Shown here: positions 34,847-41,721 of the stretch, in pieces | Position numbering within the stretch: the first letter of the stretch is position 1 | Layout of the letters: every line of letters begins with the position of its first letter | Assembly: GCF_016756535.1 (NCBI RefSeq) | Contig: NZ_AP023247.1 | Span: forward strand, 3,534,501 to 3,598,500 | Origin: Mesorhizobium sp. 131-2-1 | GTDB taxonomy: Bacteria; Pseudomonadota; Alphaproteobacteria; Rhizobiales; Rhizobiaceae | DNA length: 64,000 bases | Direction of reading: 5' to 3' | The notes under the pieces: generated by a model | The model's input: the letters and a program-made list of their open reading frames with translations, nothing else | The model's database searches: none | What the model was told of the DNA's origin: nothing | Made by a program: the position numbers and the translations under genes

Positions 34847-36622
34847 ATGGCTGAACGGAACTACACCCGTCAGCTGGCGACCATCATTTCTATCGACGCC
34901 GTCGGCTTCTCGCGGCTGATGGGCATCGACGACGAGTTGGCCGTTGCCGCTTTCGAGGAGCGCCGCGACATCATCGCCGACAGCTGCGTGGCGTTTGGCG
35001 GCCGGACTTTCGGTGACGCCGGCGACAGCATCATGGCCGAGTTCGGCAATCCGATCGAAGCCTTGCGCGCCGCCTTCGATTTCCAGGGCAGGATCGTCGC
35101 GCTCAACGCGTCCGTCGCCGAGGACATGCGTATGCCGTTTCGCGCCGGCATCAACACCGGCGACGTCATCGTGCGCGAGGGCCGTCTCTATGGCGACGAC
35201 GTTAACATCGCCGCCCGGCTGCAGGAGTTCGCGCCGCATGACGGCCTCGCCATTTCGGAGACGACATGGCACCACGTGAAGGACAAGACCGCGGCCGAAT
35301 TCACCGATCTCGGCGAATTCATGCTGAAGAACATCGCGCTGCCGGTGCGAGTGATGATCGCGGGCCGCGCCGGCAAGGGCGCGTCGCCGGCGGCGTCGTT
35401 CGCCGCAATTTCTCCCAGCCAGCAAAAGCTGCCGCCCAAAGGCCCGCCGGCGATCGCCGTGCTGCCTTTCGCGGGCGTTGGCGGTGAGCGCGACGTCGGC
35501 TACATGGCCGACGGCATCGCCGAGGACATCATCTACGGCCTGTCCAACACGAGATGGCTTTCGGTGATCGCCAAGAGCTCCAGCTTCCAGTTTCGGGACG
35601 ATAGCCTGGGCACGCGGGTGATCGGCAACGCGCTTGGCGCCCGCTACATCGTCAGCGGCACGCTGACGCGCAATGGCAGCCAGATCCGCCTCAACACCTC
35701 GCTCGCCGACACCTCGAACGGGCGGCTGGTCTGGTCGCAGCGCTTCGACCGCGACCTCGTCGACATCTTCAAGCTGCGCGACCAGATCGGCAGCGAGATC
35801 GTTGCGATACTCGACAAGGAGGTCGATCGGGCCGAGCAGGTGCGCACCTTCCAGGTGCCGTGGGAAAGCCTGGAGACCTGGCAGCTGGTGCGACGCGGCC
35901 GCTGGCACATGAACCGGCGCACCCGCGGCGACACCGAAATCGCCTTGGATTTCTTCGAAAAGGCCTACCGGGAGGACGCCAATTCCAGCGCCGTGCTGAA
36001 CGAGCTGGCATGGTGGTATTTCTGGCGGGCGTGGCTGCGCTTCGGCGACAGCGACGACCTCGACAAGGTCGAGCAATATGCGCGCAAGGCCCTGCTGATG
36101 GACAGCCTCGACGCACGTCCACACGCCCATCTCGGCGTCATCGATATCATGCGGGGGCAGCCGCGGGCGGCGATCGAGCATCTTGAGGAGGCGCTGCGCA
36201 TCAATCCGAGCTTTGCCTTCGCGCGGTCGGCCATGGGCAGCGCCAAGCTTCTGCTCGGCGATGCCGCCGACGCCATACCGTTCTTCCTCGACACCGAGCG
36301 GCTGAGCCCTTTCGATCTCTACCGGTTCCACAATCTGGGGGAACTGGCGGTCGCCTACAGTTTCGTCGAGGACTGGCCGGCTGTGATCGCCACTGCCGAT
36401 CGTTCGCTCAACCTGTCGCCCGGCTATTTCTACGCCAGGTACCTGAAGATCGGCGCTTTGATGCGCAGCGACCGCGTCGACGAAGCCAAACGCGAACTGG
36501 CGATTTTCACGACCAGGCATCCGGATTTCTCGGAGCAGCGGGTGCGTTGGATACCTTTCGCCGACAAGGCCGCGAATGAATTCCTCATCGCCAATTTCGA
36601 ACAGGCCAGATCGGTGACGTGA
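34847..36622 (+). CDS. Class III cyclase with FlgO-like and TPR regions, cytosolic
   Basis: The 591-residue protein has a class III cyclase domain (metal-binding Asp17 in SIDAVGFSRL and Asp60 in GDAGDSIMAEF; Asp117, Asn120 and Arg124 in GDDVNIAAR), a FlgO-like domain (IAVLPFAGVGGERDVGYMADGIAEDI) and TPR-like repeats. The Lys that selects adenine in class III enzymes is Gly56 here, so substrate choice or activity may differ from the paralogue at 8540. It has no membrane segment, unlike that paralogue. The ATG at 34847 is preferred. It lies 129 bases upstream of the P450-DyP fusion on the same strand. Confidence 0.88.
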   Translation: MAERNYTRQLATIISIDAVGFSRLMGIDDELAVAAFEERRDIIADSCVAFGGRTFGDAGDSIMAEFGNPIEALRAAFDFQGRIVALNASVAEDMRMPFRAGINTGDVIVREGRLYGDDVNIAARLQEFAPHDGLAISETTWHHVKDKTAAEFTDLGEFMLKNIALPVRVMIAGRAGKGASPAASFAAISPSQQKLPPKGPPAIAVLPFAGVGGERDVGYMADGIAEDIIYGLSNTRWLSVIAKSSSFQFRDDSLGTRVIGNALGARYIVSGTLTRNGSQIRLNTSLADTSNGRLVWSQRFDRDLVDIFKLRDQIGSEIVAILDKEVDRAEQVRTFQVPWESLETWQLVRRGRWHMNRRTRGDTEIALDFFEKAYREDANSSAVLNELAWWYFWRAWLRFGDSDDLDKVEQYARKALLMDSLDARPHAHLGVIDIMRGQPRAAIEHLEEALRINPSFAFARSAMGSAKLLLGDAADAIPFFLDTERLSPFDLYRFHNLGELAVAYSFVEDWPAVIATADRSLNLSPGYFYARYLKIGALMRSDRVDEAKRELAIFTTRHPDFSEQRVRWIPFADKAANEFLIANFEQARSVT

Positions 36623-36656: not shown

Positions 36657-36672
36657 TGTGAAAAGATTCACA
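36657..36672. promoter_or_regulatory. Perfect Crp-type binding site upstream of the P450-DyP gene
   Basis: TGTGA-AAAGAT-TCACA matches the Crp consensus TGTGA-N6-TCACA at all ten fixed bases. It lies between the cyclase stop and the fusion start, centred about 87 bases before the chosen ATG. A weak -10-like CATAGG at 36692-36697 places the site near -40, as in Crp-activated class II promoters. Confidence 0.8.
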
Positions 36673-36751: not shown

Positions 36752-39700
36752 ATGATCAAACTAAAATATTTCGCTGGCGTCCGGGCGGCCCAGAAGACCC
36801 AGCGGCCACTGTCGGAAATGCCGCCTTTCGACATTGAACGGTTGCGCGCCAACGGCCTGGCGTCCCGCATCGTGAACTTCTTCTTCGGCGATCCGCGCTG
36901 GGCCCTCGCGCTATTGCGCCGCTTCAAGCCGAACCTCGGCTTCGGCAATTTCCTGCTCGTCACCAGGAATGCCGACGTTCGCGACATACTGGAGCGAGGC
37001 GACGAGTTCGAGACGCCCTACGGGCCGGAAATGGCCGAGCTGGCACGCGGCTCGAATTTCATTCTCGGCATGCAGGACGGCGCCACCTACCGGCAGATGA
37101 AATCGTCGGTGCTGAGCGCCTTTCCGCCGGCCGAGGTCGAGGCCAAGGTCAGGCCGATCGCCGCGCGTCATTCAAGGGATATCATGGCGGCCGCCAGCCC
37201 CGGCTTCGACGCCATCGCCGGGCTGATGAAGATCGTGCCGGTGCATATCTGCCGCGACTATTTCGGGCTGGAGATCGACGACGAATCCGAATTCGCCGAT
37301 TGGGCGATCGCCTTGAGTGCATTGTTCTTTTCCGATCCGACGGCGAAACCGGCCACGCGCGAGCTCGCCGTCGTCGGCGGCGACCGGCTGATCAAGCTCA
37401 TCGACCGCTCCATTGACGCGATCAGGGAAAAAGGAGCGAAGGACCAGCAGCCGCTGGCGCGTCTCGTTGCCATGCTCGACCAGGGCCGCCTGTCGCGGCC
37501 GGACATCCATTCCATCATGCTTGGCATGATCGCTGGCTTCGTGCCGACCAACGTGCTGGCCGGCAGCAATTGCCTGGACGTGATCCTGTCCAGGCCAGAC
37601 GCGCGGCAGGCGATCGATGCGGCGCTCGCCGAAAGCGACACGGGGAAGCTGGACCGGGCCATCATGGAAGCCATGCGCTTCAAGCCGATCTGGGTCGGTC
37701 CGTGGCGCTACACCTCGCGCGACACGGTGATCGCCAAAGGCACGCCCCGCGAGCGCCTGGTGAAGGCGGGAACGGTGGTGATGCCAGCCACGCTGTCGGC
37801 GATGTTCGACCCCGATGCCGTGCAGAATCCCAACGATTTCGACACTACGCGTCCGTATCGCGATTATCTGGTCTTCGGTCACGGCATCCATCTTTGCATC
37901 GGCGCCGAGATCGCCAGGATCCAGATTGGCGAATGCGTGCGCGCGCTGTTCGGCAAGGAGAAACTGCGCCGCGCGCCGGGCAAGGCCGGGCGGCTGATCA
38001 ACATCGGCGCCTATCCGGAGAGCCTCAAGGTCGACTTCGATCAGCCGGCGCTTTGCCGCACCGTCGACCAGTCGATGGTGACCGTGGTCTGCCCGGTCAT
38101 CCGGGCCGTGCCGCTGGACGCCATACGCGACAAGGTCGCCACGCTCGGCAATCCGGCGAGCGAGGAGATCAGCGCCGCGCTTGATATTGCCGGCACCATC
38201 CATTTCACCAGCCTCGCCGTCGCCGGCACCGGCGAAATCGATGAGGCTTCCGGTCTCGAGAAGGGCGCGCTCGTGCTGGAAATCTCCGGTGACGGCAACG
38301 CCGGCGAGGTCATCGACGCCGTCTCCCAGGCCATCGGCCATCGGCTTCGGCCGATCTTCAAGGACGTCTGCGGCCTGCCCGAGGGCGGCGCGCTGGGCGA
38401 CTTCCTGTGCAGGCACAATATCGAGATATCGCCGTCCTTCGGCAGCAATGCCGGATTGGTGTTTTCCGGCACGCCGGGGCATTCGGTCCGCCGCATCCTG
38501 GCTGAAGCCGAGCTTGCCGAAACCGTGCGCGGCATTGCCGAGCGGCCGCGCGCCGGCAATGCCGATGCCGCCACGGTGCTTGCCGAGGCGCGCCGGCATG
38601 TCCGTTCGCTGGGCCGGTTCGACTGGGCTTTCCAGCCCGCCGAAAGCCTGCTCGAAAACCCGCCCGGCAAGTGGTGGCAGGCCATTACCACCACGCTGCT
38701 GGCGCCGCCCATGCTCGTCGCTGTCGCGGTCGTCGTGCTCGTCTGCTGGAAGCTGACCTACAAGCTGGTGTTCGCCGATCCGAGCGGGTTCAGCTTCACC
38801 ACCGTCGCCATTGCCGCCACGGCGCTTCTCCTGGCCGTGCTCGGCCTCATCGCAATGGCTGTGGTGGCGCTTGGCGTCTGCTTCATCGCCTTGCGGCGGC
38901 TCGAAGACATTGACCGTCCGCACAACACGCCGGTCGACCTCCAGGCGCTGGACAAGATCATCGTGCATGAGGATCGCGCCGCGCAGAACCATATGACGGC
39001 GATCTCGACGATGAAGGCCGGAACCTTGCGGCGGCTGGCGCTCCGGCTGTCTTTCTACCTGATCTCGATCACGGCGCGGAAAGTGTTCAAGCCGGGCTTC
39101 CTCGCCACCATCAACACCATCCATTTCGCCCGCTGGGTGCTTTTGCCGAGCACCAACAGGCTGATGTTCTTCTCCAACTATGGCGGCAGCTGGGAAAGCT
39201 ATCTCGAGGATTTCATCGCCAAGGCCGCGTCCGGGCTCACCGGCGTGTGGAGCAACACCGAAGGCTATCCGCGCACGCGCTGGCTGTTCCTCGATGGCGC
39301 TCGCGACGGCGACCGGTTCAAACGCTGGGCACGGCGGCAGCAGGTGCCGACCCTGTTCTGGTATTCGGCCTACCGCGAACTCAACACAGCGGGCATCCGG
39401 ATCAATTCCCGGATCAGGCACGGCATTGCTTCCGCTACCGACAACGAAGCGCGCGACTGGCTGAGCCTGTTCGGTTCGCTGCCGCGGCTGGTGACCGAAA
39501 GAACCACCGTTCAGAAAACCACTTCGCTGCTGGCCAATATCAGCTCGGCCTTCCCGCCGCCTCTTGAGCAGCAGCTGGAAACCGGTGAGATCCAGTCCAT
39601 CTTCTTCGGTCCGTTCGGGTCGCTGGCGCACGGGCATATGATGGCGATCGCCATACCGGAGACCCTGTCCAGGGCAAGCCGCAAGGCCTGGCTAGAGTTC

Positions 39701-41005
39701 GTCGTTGCCCGCGCGAGTTTTGGCGATGGCGTGCCGCGCGAGCGCGCGATGACGCTGGCATTCGGTCCTGACGGGCTTCGCCGCCTCGGACTGGACGGCG
39801 GCGTCGAGGGCGATCCACTCGGCACGTTCCCCGTCGCCTTTCGCCACGGCATGGGCAATCCCGAACGCGGCCGCATCCTGGACGATCTCGGCGACAGCGT
39901 TCCCGACAAATGGCAATGGGGTTCACTGCAGAAGCCGGCGGACGCCGTCGTCGTCTGCTATGCTGAAAGCCCCGAGATCCTGAAGACCGAGCTTGCCGCG
40001 CTGAAGAAAAAGACATCGGGCGCGGGCATCGTGCTGGTTTCGGAACTGCCGCTGGCAGTGAAGCGGGACGGCAAGCGCGCGGTCGAGCATTTCGGCTTCG
40101 TCGACGGGGTTTCGCAGCCGATCGTGCGCGGCACGGCGCGCGCCAATGCGGGTGTTGCACCCATGCATCTGGTTGCGCCCGGCGAATTCCTGTTCGGCTA
40201 TCGCGACGAGCACGGCTTCTATCCGGCTTCGCCTTCCGTCCCCGCCGCGCAGGACCGCTCCGGCATCCTGTCGGCGGTGCGCCGCAACCGGCAGATCGCC
40301 GGATTGCCACCGCCGCCGCACGATTTCGGCCGCAATGGCTCCTTTCTCGTCATGCGCCAGTTCGAGCAGCACGTCGAGCGCTTCGACGACTATTGCAAGG
40401 CGGCAGCCGCGCAGGTGGCGGGCGAGACCGGCAATCCGGCGATCACGCCGCGCTGGGTGGCCGCCAAGATGCTCGGCCGCTGGCCGGACGGCAGCTCGCT
40501 GGTGCGCAATCCAGATGGCCGCCCCGGACGCGGCGTCGACAATGATTTCACCCTTGGCGTCGAGGACCCGCAGGGGCATCGCTGCCCGCTTGGCGCCCAC
40601 ATACGCCGCTCCAATCCGCGCGACTCGCTTGGCGAGGACCGCGAGACGCAGATCCAGATCGGCAAGCGCCACCGCATCATCCGCGTCGGCCGCTCCTACC
40701 AGAAGCAGGAGCGGAAGGGCGGAAAGGTCGAGAAGGGCCTGCTCTTCATGTGCCTCAACGCCGACATCGAGCGCCAGTATGAGTTCATGCAGCAGACCTG
40801 GGTCTCATCGACCTCGTTCCAGGGGCTGGTCGGTGAAAAGGATCCGACGATCGGCTCGCGCACCGGTGACGGCAGGTTCACCATCCCGTCGTGGGAGGGC
40901 GTCACCGTGCTGAAGGGAATGCCGCAATTCGTCACCACAAGGGGTGGCGGCTATTTCTTCATGCCGAGCAAATCCTCGCTGCGCTACCTGATCTCGCGGC
41001 TCTGA
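36752..41005 (+). CDS. Cytochrome P450 / membrane hairpin / DyP-type peroxidase fusion protein
   Basis: The 1417-residue protein has two heme enzymes in one chain. Residues 1-430 are a P450: Glu306-x-x-Arg309 (EAMR) and the heme loop FGHGIHLCIG with Cys382; the I-helix reads AGFVPT (261-266) and lacks the usual acid and first Thr. Residues 483-600 and 790-905 are two similar domains, both opening with IHF, on either side of two membrane segments (about 650-665 and 683-714). Residues 945-1417 are a DyP peroxidase with GFVDG (Asp1118) and proximal His1283 in CPLGAHIRRSNPR. With a membrane hairpin both heme domains would face the cytosol. The ATG at 36752 (GGGGGG 11 bases before) is preferred to a GTG at 36725. 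Substrate unknown. Confidence 0.88.
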   Translation: MIKLKYFAGVRAAQKTQRPLSEMPPFDIERLRANGLASRIVNFFFGDPRWALALLRRFKPNLGFGNFLLVTRNADVRDILERGDEFETPYGPEMAELARGSNFILGMQDGATYRQMKSSVLSAFPPAEVEAKVRPIAARHSRDIMAAASPGFDAIAGLMKIVPVHICRDYFGLEIDDESEFADWAIALSALFFSDPTAKPATRELAVVGGDRLIKLIDRSIDAIREKGAKDQQPLARLVAMLDQGRLSRPDIHSIMLGMIAGFVPTNVLAGSNCLDVILSRPDARQAIDAALAESDTGKLDRAIMEAMRFKPIWVGPWRYTSRDTVIAKGTPRERLVKAGTVVMPATLSAMFDPDAVQNPNDFDTTRPYRDYLVFGHGIHLCIGAEIARIQIGECVRALFGKEKLRRAPGKAGRLINIGAYPESLKVDFDQPALCRTVDQSMVTVVCPVIRAVPLDAIRDKVATLGNPASEEISAALDIAGTIHFTSLAVAGTGEIDEASGLEKGALVLEISGDGNAGEVIDAVSQAIGHRLRPIFKDVCGLPEGGALGDFLCRHNIEISPSFGSNAGLVFSGTPGHSVRRILAEAELAETVRGIAERPRAGNADAATVLAEARRHVRSLGRFDWAFQPAESLLENPPGKWWQAITTTLLAPPMLVAVAVVVLVCWKLTYKLVFADPSGFSFTTVAIAATALLLAVLGLIAMAVVALGVCFIALRRLEDIDRPHNTPVDLQALDKIIVHEDRAAQNHMTAISTMKAGTLRRLALRLSFYLISITARKVFKPGFLATINTIHFARWVLLPSTNRLMFFSNYGGSWESYLEDFIAKAASGLTGVWSNTEGYPRTRWLFLDGARDGDRFKRWARRQQVPTLFWYSAYRELNTAGIRINSRIRHGIASATDNEARDWLSLFGSLPRLVTERTTVQKTTSLLANISSAFPPPLEQQLETGEIQSIFFGPFGSLAHGHMMAIAIPETLSRASRKAWLEFVVARASFGDGVPRERAMTLAFGPDGLRRLGLDGGVEGDPLGTFPVAFRHGMGNPERGRILDDLGDSVPDKWQWGSLQKPADAVVVCYAESPEILKTELAALKKKTSGAGIVLVSELPLAVKRDGKRAVEHFGFVDGVSQPIVRGTARANAGVAPMHLVAPGEFLFGYRDEHGFYPASPSVPAAQDRSGILSAVRRNRQIAGLPPPPHDFGRNGSFLVMRQFEQHVERFDDYCKAAAAQVAGETGNPAITPRWVAAKMLGRWPDGSSLVRNPDGRPGRGVDNDFTLGVEDPQGHRCPLGAHIRRSNPRDSLGEDRETQIQIGKRHRIIRVGRSYQKQERKGGKVEKGLLFMCLNADIERQYEFMQQTWVSSTSFQGLVGEKDPTIGSRTGDGRFTIPSWEGVTVLKGMPQFVTTRGGGYFFMPSKSSLRYLISRL

Positions 41006-41034: not shown

Positions 41035-41721
41035 TCAGTCGTCGTCCTGCGATTCGGCGATGGTGCCCAGCGCCCTGGCGTCGGTTATGCGCAGGCCGCC
41101 GCGCTTGATGTCGATGATCCGGCGGCCGCGCCAGTCGTTCAGGGTCTTGTTGACCGACTCGCGCGTCGCGCCGAGGAACTCGCCCAGCTCCGACTGCGAG
41201 ATCGGTATCCAGCCGTCACTGTCGGCCATGACGCCGGCCAGGAACACCAGTCGTTTTGCCAGCCTGGCTTCGATGCCGAAGAAGGCTTGGTCGCCGAGCT
41301 CTCCGCTGACCCAGCGCAGCCGGGCGCACAGCAAATCGATCATGGCGCGCGCCAGCGATGGGTTTTTCTCAATGCGATCAAAGAGTTGCGCTCGGCTAAG
41401 CGAGACCAGCTCGCATGCTGTGAGGCAGATGGCGGTTGCCGTGCGCGGGCGCCCGTCGAGCGCGCCGATCTCGCCGACCAGGCTGCGCGACAATTCGATA
41501 TTGGCCACCAGCTTCTGGCCGCCCGGCGAGTAGATCGAGATTTCCACCGAGCCGCTGATCACGCCGTAGATGCGGTCGGCGGCGTCCTCCTGGACGAACA
41601 GATGCTGGCCGGCCGCATAGCGCTCGACCTTGCAGCCGCTGAACAGCAGATCGAATTGATGCGGATCGATCCGCGCAAGGCGCGGCAGGTCGTTCCTGTC
41701 GTTCGCGCTGGCGAAAGCCAT
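41035..41721 (-). CDS. Crp/Fnr family regulator with cAMP-type binding cassette
   Basis: The 228-residue protein has a cyclic-nucleotide-binding domain with GEIGALDGRPRTATA (about residues 83-97), the phosphate-binding cassette of cAMP-binding Crp proteins, and a C-terminal HTH (ISQSELGEFLGATRESVNKTL) whose recognition helix keeps the Arg187-Glu188 pair that reads TGTGA in Crp. No Fnr-type N-terminal cysteines are present. The ATG at 41721 is preferred to a TTG at 41793. It is convergent with the P450-DyP gene, 29 bases away. Confidence 0.9.
   Translation of the reverse strand: MAFASANDRNDLPRLARIDPHQFDLLFSGCKVERYAAGQHLFVQEDAADRIYGVISGSVEISIYSPGGQKLVANIELSRSLVGEIGALDGRPRTATAICLTACELVSLSRAQLFDRIEKNPSLARAMIDLLCARLRWVSGELGDQAFFGIEARLAKRLVFLAGVMADSDGWIPISQSELGEFLGATRESVNKTLNDWRGRRIIDIKRGGLRITDARALGTIAESQDDD

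Follow-up and report, generated by a model that had tools for sequence, protein, structure and literature searches.

Heme enzymes that transform hydroperoxides include catalase-related proteins and atypical cytochromes P450 (PMC5617202, PMC8124189, PMC11719350), and in fungi a dioxygenase fused to a P450 makes a fatty-acid hydroperoxide and then converts it (PMC11719350). DyP-type peroxidases are widespread, and the paper on the Deinococcus radiodurans enzyme DrDyP closes with the question of what they act on in nature (PMC10820274). Here we describe a gene of the soil bacterium Mesorhizobium sp. 131-2-1 that joins a P450 to a DyP-type peroxidase through a membrane hairpin. It lies in a stretch of 64,000 nucleotides of contig NZ_AP023247.1 (positions 3,534,501 to 3,598,500), hereafter the window. 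Our leading, still tentative reading of the locus is that it encodes a membrane-anchored two-heme enzyme that may carry out linked peroxide/hydroperoxide chemistry under the control of a cyclase and a Crp regulator. An earlier note, made from the letters of the window, had described one frame of about 1417 codons with two heme sites and had known of no characterised bacterial enzyme with this layout. No paper describing the fusion was found among the best matches in open-access PMC full texts (subscription papers and preprints lay outside this scope). In two surveys of alphaproteobacterial and proteobacterial P450s, the words fusion, fused and peroxidase are absent from the main texts.

A conserved double-heme fusion and its modular relatives

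Translation and alignment confirmed that positions 36752-41002 encode a single unbroken protein of 1417 residues, in which both heme sites are conserved (Table 1). The P450 domain scored 39.5 bits against the Pfam p450 model, and its predicted structure matched known P450 structures (model and Foldseek). It possesses the ExxR motif, the heme-thiolate loop FxxGxxxCxG and the fold of the cytochrome P450 superfamily, with catalytic-site residues that were invariant in alignments of relatives. The DyP domain has the GxxDG motif, proximal His, conserved Arg and fold of the DyP-type peroxidase superfamily, and scored 97.4 bits against NCBIfam TIGR01413, i.e., slightly below the cut-off of 100.5. The two-helix membrane segment that the note had placed between the heme enzymes was recovered both in the predicted model and as a hydrophobic stretch.

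The fusion also contains two copies of what we label FD, a ferredoxin-like domain with no established name or Pfam model. Both predicted models gave FD1 a beta-alpha-beta-beta-alpha-beta order, and FD1 was the second match of the FD alignment in its own genome (one FD1 row was included in that alignment). The counterpart of FD2 elsewhere is a single gene adjoining DyP, and this partner also stands beside the crystallised Deinococcus DyP. FD was also compared with the DyP half as a possible distant copy of it, but profile comparison detected no relation (probability 0.5%); what the two share is just the sequence of strands and helices.

Names given to relatives in databases, e.g., 'deferrochelatase/peroxidase EfeB/cytochrome P450', would suit an EfeB-like role in iron or heme handling, in which the DyP would free or manage heme iron and the P450 would serve as a sensor or heme store. 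The DyP domain reached 25.7 of the 428 bits of the EfeB deferrochelatase model (TIGR01412) and falls outside that family; we consider such a role very improbable.

The note had proposed a database search for genomes that keep the full fusion and for the genes that adjoin it. This search yielded 505 relatives, and 113 of the best 120 covered the whole query from end to end. Locus comparisons were made on the best 80 of 379 relatives (named records), in 78 of which the frame was intact; the other two (L100 and L130) are cut by contig ends. The adverse case named in the note, i.e., relatives existing as separate genes only and a one-off join produced by assembly error, is therefore excluded by the end-to-end relatives and intact frames; separate and reversed forms coexist with the fusion. 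Across five pairs of fusions, dN/dS ranged from 0.10 to 0.24 for the P450 and DyP parts, as against 0.17-0.52 for the hairpin. Both catalytic sites are conserved and under purifying selection.

To follow the distribution of the fusion, subsets of genomes were drawn at family, order, class and phylum level. Within the family, 31 of 199 genomes gave a match at 1e-30 or better, and 26 of these (as read from the table) hold the full forward fusion. A search with a 12-row alignment, in which P450-only matches were counted, gave matches in 27 of 297 genomes of the order and 21 of 337 of the class. One further genus contributed two genomes (G019, G121) with a forward fusion at 36% identity, and G032 has a second copy at this level. 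G032 thus holds two forward fusions: L025, which is 55% identical to that of the window, and L042, which is 36% identical and directly preceded by its own TPR regulator. Among the best 80 relatives, the hosts are, e.g., Mesorhizobium, Nitratireductor, Chelativorans, Aquamicrobium, Pseudaminobacter, Zhengella, Aquibium and Rhizobium sp. Root483D2, and the genes are plasmid-borne in Pararhizobium, Novosphingobium aromaticivorans and Sulfitobacter.

The forward fusion is one form of a modular P450/FD/DyP system. Cyclase, P450 and FD1-FD2-DyP are separate neighbouring genes in L167, L177 and L283, whilst FD, DyP and P450 genes adjoin one another in, e.g., L168, L170, L172-L174, L225, L226, L229, L230 and L239. 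A reversed DyP-P450 fusion accompanied by a separate FD gene occurs in L039, L040 and L182. When the reversed fusion of Hoeflea prorocentri was used as query, 254 relatives were obtained at E 1e-3 or better; most of 120 of these are 1150-1460 aa long, with the P450 half confirmed in some only. In a 52-row P450 tree (drawn open), the partners of forward, split and reversed DyPs formed one DyP-linked group (support 83/79), adjoining seven P450s without DyP in the stretches examined (support 98/88). Moreover, P450 and DyP distances were correlated across 30 loci (Mantel r 0.67, reached by 0 of 5000 permutations). Of 349 genomes sampled across the phylum, 23 contained FD, which adjoined DyP in all 14 freshly fetched loci from this search.

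Two observations stand beside these. RoxA-like cytochrome c genes (PF21419) adjoin the sister P450 group, which has a normal GxxETT, in four of seven loci (L179, L180, L287, L288), and pairing with a second heme oxidase thus seems to recur in this P450 clade; the FD-DyP locus L234 has a RoxA-like neighbour too. In addition, L184:392-5155 encodes a 1587-aa protein with FD, DyP and a P450-like stretch (GFIPT and HACPG by eye), together with a GDSL lipase match of 27 of 32.9 bits, which is below the Pfam cut-off.

The P450 I-helix and the second heme partner

In P450s, an acid in the I-helix belongs to the path by which protons are supplied when O2 is activated. The fusion has proline at this place and keeps the threonine that follows: G262-F-x-P265-T266 was found in 65 of 65 rows, with G262, F263, P265 and T266 invariant, and P265 aligns with the acid of GxxETT (GAIETT or similar) in relatives without DyP. 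These closer relatives ruled out a reading taken from the alignment with EryK, in which proline would replace the catalytic Thr. Among 21 split-gene P450s adjoining DyP, the residue was Pro in 17 (L175 being uncertainly aligned), Asp in three and Ala in one. Nine P450 relatives without DyP in the stretches examined carried Glu (seven) or Pro (two, i.e., L282 and L289, whose contigs end 1.3-2.5 kb from the P450 gene). The heme loop is canonical in relatives (FGHGxHxCxG). Loss of the acid is thus a pointer, though no proof, towards peroxide or hydroperoxide as the oxidant.

The partner of the DyP is not always a P450. By profile matches, 56 DyP loci had a P450 partner in 35 cases, a catalase-family partner in 12, both in none and neither in nine; this count omits L043-L138, which are mostly Mesorhizobium-type fusions, and counts near-duplicates such as L230/L237 and L049/L050 separately. 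The 14 loci from the FD search, some of which also matched the fusion alignment, gave five, six, none and three, respectively. In Deinococcus radiodurans (L294:5950-9183), an FD gene, the crystallised DyP and a catalase-family gene stand in this order after a 3-hydroxyacyl-CoA dehydrogenase gene, and the FD-DyP-catalase order is also found on an Acinetobacter plasmid. A 3-hydroxyacyl-CoA dehydrogenase gene is likewise near FD-DyP-catalase in Acinetobacter and L041, and in Novosphingobium the regulator is preceded by acyl-CoA dehydrogenase and MaoC genes. The Deinococcus row is, separately, a lead on the substrate of DrDyP.

All 12 catalase-family partners keep RxxxY, which we take to be the proximal-side motif, and in four (L181, L183, L227, L228) the presumed distal His is replaced by Asn. 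The last GxxDG place is Ser or Met in the DyPs of three aligned catalase-partnered loci and Gly in five P450-linked ones; a deviating residue here is the oddity described for DrDyP (PMC10820274). As for the loci with neither partner, a P450-like tail was seen by eye in L184 and L241, and L234 is the locus with the RoxA-like neighbour. In L224 and L298, an endonuclease/exonuclease/phosphatase-family gene follows FD-DyP (L224:9060-10499 and L298:10286-11383), and in L233, L244, L248 and L301 no comparable partner was seen among the few neighbours scanned.

The flanking cyclase gene, Crp gene and Crp box

In the window and in most close relatives, the fusion is flanked by a cyclase gene and a Crp gene. 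The former was found in 76 and the latter in 77 of the 80 relatives. Some misses lie at or near contig ends (cyclase L098 and L130; Crp L100 and L127), leaving L115 and L116 without cyclase and L105 without Crp over a full stretch. Further out, an L,D-transpeptidase gene occurs in 47 of 80 and the next ones in 44 and 30, figures that are lower bounds because the stretches reach 8 kb only.

The upstream protein, with a Pfam Guanylate_cyc match of 25.6 bits (cut-off 21.9) as well as TPRs, is a predicted class III cyclase, and its closest structure is 3mr7. The convergent downstream gene encodes a cNMP-binding domain and a Crp helix-turn-helix, and the TGTGA-N6-TCACA site near the fusion gene completes the sequence features expected of a Crp/Fnr regulator with cAMP-Crp boxes. 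The Crp helix GATRESVNKTL resembles GASRETVNKAL of the nearest solved relatives, which we take to be regulators of the actinobacterial GlxR/Rv3676 type. Sites of such regulators share the TGTGA-N6-TCACA form (PMC4868304).

The box TGTGAAAAGATTCACA lies between the cyclase gene and the fusion gene. Four of the 80 relatives had too little upstream sequence to be scanned; in the other 76, the best site scored 10/10 in 58, 9 in 16, 7 in L130, which has a truncated start, and 6 in L112. A score of 9 was reached by 0.4% of letter shuffles and 0.2% of stretches inside the gene. The arms of the box are constant among relatives and the spacer letters vary, and the 7.1-Mb genome holds eight perfect sites as against two for the pattern read backwards. 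In the proposed circuit, the cyclase would supply a cyclic nucleotide, and the Crp protein encoded next door would bind the box, some 80 bp before the fusion gene, and switch that gene, probably by activation rather than repression. The locus would thereby offer a compact cyclase-Crp-box circuit with an obvious target gene.

In some distant forms (L049, L176 and L295), the TPR half of the upstream partner is retained, and the cyclase is swapped for a SARP/winged-helix-like N-terminus (seen by eye in L049 and L176, and from annotation in L295). A prediction that SARP-type loci lack the Crp box failed, given scores of 10/10 in L049 and 9/10 in L050. No site of 9 or more was found in L042, L176, L284, L295 or L296 (the SARP-like start being unchecked in L042, L284 and L296, and the scan of L284 covering only the stretch before the fusion), and the Deinococcus row has no Crp box (best 7/10). 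PADLOC models of anti-phage defence matched neither the fusion, the cyclase, FD nor the reversed fusion, and a defence-system reading was rejected; of the Crp protein, the cNMP-binding part by itself gave matches to TIR effector models (best E 2.3e-9).

Table 1. Features of the fusion locus, in window coordinates
Feature	Position	Strand	Basis
Upstream partner: class III adenylate/guanylate cyclase domain, TolB-like part (by eye) and TPR; ATG by eye	34847..36622	+	Pfam
Crp box TGTGA-AAAGAT-TCACA, roughly 80 bp before the ATG	36657..36672	+	exact match
Fusion gene, P450 - FD1 - membrane hairpin - FD2 - DyP	36752..41005 (stop included)	+	open frame, full-length relatives
Cytochrome P450 domain, residues 1-425; ExxR 306-309, heme Cys382	36752..38026	+	Pfam, structure match
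I-helix motif G262-F-V-P265-T266; Pro where an acid is usual, Thr kept	37535..37549	+	alignments
FD1, ferredoxin-like domain, residues 430-640	38039..38671	+	models, FD alignment search
Membrane hairpin, helices about 652-673 and 682-720	38705..38911	+	model; hydrophobic stretch in translation
FD2, ferredoxin-like, residues 736-930; motifs TIHFARW and GGSWESYLEDF	38957..39541	+	alignment, model
DyP-type peroxidase domain, residues 941-1417; GxxDG 1115-1119, proximal His1283, Arg1308/Arg1311	39572..41002	+	
Downstream convergent Crp/Fnr regulator; start by eye	41035..41721	-	Pfam cNMP_binding, HTH_Crp_2

Proposed chemistry and comparison with known systems

In the reading that we favour, both domains would load heme and be active. 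The FD-DyP part would oxidise some unsaturated compound that dissolves in the membrane (a fatty acyl chain being most likely, an isoprenoid another possibility), with a hydroperoxide either made or consumed; the P450 part would rearrange, cleave or reduce the (hydro)peroxide, with no need for NAD(P)H plus O2. The acid-less P450 and the catalase-family protein exchange beside the same FD-DyP and should therefore do similar chemistry. In other systems, proteins of these two kinds have the conversion of lipid hydroperoxides in common; this, the lipid neighbours and the hairpin together suggest that the DyP may form or use a lipid hydroperoxide which the P450 converts. The lipid-metabolism neighbours, the sub-cut-off lipase match and the hairpin are all consistent with a lipid substrate. 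The earlier note had suggested peroxide coupling between the domains or serial action at the membrane, and this fits the I-helix change, the P450/catalase exchange and the fungal fusions (PMC11719350), the chemistry itself being what we infer. Its core, a conserved double-heme hairpin fusion, stood; the FD domains, the reversed and split forms, the cyclase/Crp module and the Crp box had been overlooked. In a bolder version, which we regard as doubtful, FD-DyP would be a new class of heme-dependent lipid/isoprenoid oxygenase whose hydroperoxide is passed to an interchangeable P450 or catalase-related enzyme. Fused via the hairpin in rhizobia and switched by cyclase-cAMP-Crp, it would constitute a bacterial oxylipin system independent of the fungal and coral ones.

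Several points weigh against linked hydroperoxide chemistry. Three DyP-linked P450s (L240, L246, L285) retain Asp in the I-helix, and reversed-fusion P450s vary there (Pro in L040, Ala in L039, Gly in L243, Thr in L182; L242 unaligned) and mostly align poorly, 57 of 123 being unaligned at this place. The proline is essentially one event on the tree, retained thereafter (a 27-row clade, support 88/98, drawn open), so the correlation between motif and partner does not amount to many independent cases. Thr266 is retained, and EryK (CYP113A1), deposited as a C-12 hydroxylase, is also without the acid in the phmmer alignment (AGHITTT), so that loss of the acid is no proof of lost O2 chemistry. The retained Thr and Asp, the example of EryK and the canonical heme loop would suit an ordinary O2-dependent P450 with a ferredoxin and reductase encoded elsewhere, the fused DyP acting on the same aromatic or terpenoid substrate in catabolism. 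Such a P450 is harder to reconcile with a proline fixed in every row, and no redox-partner-like gene was seen among the recurring neighbours, a view drawn from those neighbours only, with small genes unscreened and no profile screen for redox partners made. We consider it improbable and rank it second among the rivals.

On the same side, DrDyP, the closest DyP structure, is described as inactive with H2O2 at physiological pH (PMC10820274), and Deinococcus DRA0146 is called a catalase (PMC7143949), a name that favours plain detoxification. The 35:12 ratio of partners is biased, since the queries that fetched nearly all of the loci contained a P450 or FD, and near-duplicates are among them. The genome, moreover, holds 33 cyclase matches, so a cyclase neighbour alone would mean little, whereas its conservation carries weight.

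The chief rival is one of peroxide management, in which an H2O2-run P450 peroxygenase is paired with a DyP that removes or meters peroxide (or degrades lipid hydroperoxides), the purpose being to withstand stress and not to make a product. The missing acid and the exchange with a catalase-family protein would both suit it. DRA0145 and DRA0146 are reported to be raised under UVC/vacuum (PMC5731708), and the DRA0146 transcript to be 2-fold lower in the crp-family mutant dr0997 (PMC4868304). However, a substrate-binding P450 would be an odd choice for detoxification, and the membrane hairpin and lipid-gene neighbours would be left unexplained. Asn in four of the 12 catalase-family partners also ill suits a peroxide-destroying catalase. 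On this evidence, we hold peroxide management to be unlikely, and linked hydroperoxide chemistry remains the reading that we prefer.

Both fusion forms, together with the exchange of P450 for catalase, name the working partner of the DyP and point to hydroperoxides, which makes the DyP substrate question testable with one protein. If the P450 does run on peroxide with no help from redox partners, this would also be of practical use.

CYP152 peroxygenases, which we understand to be peroxide-driven, resemble the P450 of the fusion in lacking the acid-alcohol pair in the I-helix. They carry Arg-Pro at this position, whereas the window has Val-Pro-Thr (GFVPT), the G-F-x-P-T pattern of all rows. 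CYP74 hydroperoxide enzymes have an altered, extended heme loop; that of the window is canonical (FGHGIHLCIG). DrDyP (8RE2/8RE3) differs in being encoded by a separate gene that is followed by a catalase-family gene rather than a P450, and has Met at the fifth GxxDG place (PMC10820274), where the window has Gly. Oomycete CYP5619, likened here by description only, is also a P450 fused to a peroxidase/dioxygenase, and its fusions are confined to oomycetes according to PMC5919972.

The fungal DOX-CYP fusions (linoleate diol synthases) likewise carry two heme domains per chain, one of them a P450, but they begin with a cyclooxygenase-like heme dioxygenase domain (PMC9579011), whereas the window has a DyP, which belongs to another superfamily. 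The window protein also differs in having the P450 first, FD domains and a membrane hairpin. It gave no Pfam match up to E 1 to the cyclooxygenase-like heme peroxidase domain of DOX-CYP, which we take to be PF03098. The coral catalase-like allene oxide synthase-lipoxygenase fusions have a catalase-type second heme partner (PMC5617202, PMC3925239), as do the FD-DyP-catalase rows; the first enzyme of the coral fusions is a lipoxygenase, and DyP and FD are absent. Taken together, we propose that the Mesorhizobium fusion may bear a working likeness to the fungal and coral fusions, without homology at the first enzyme.

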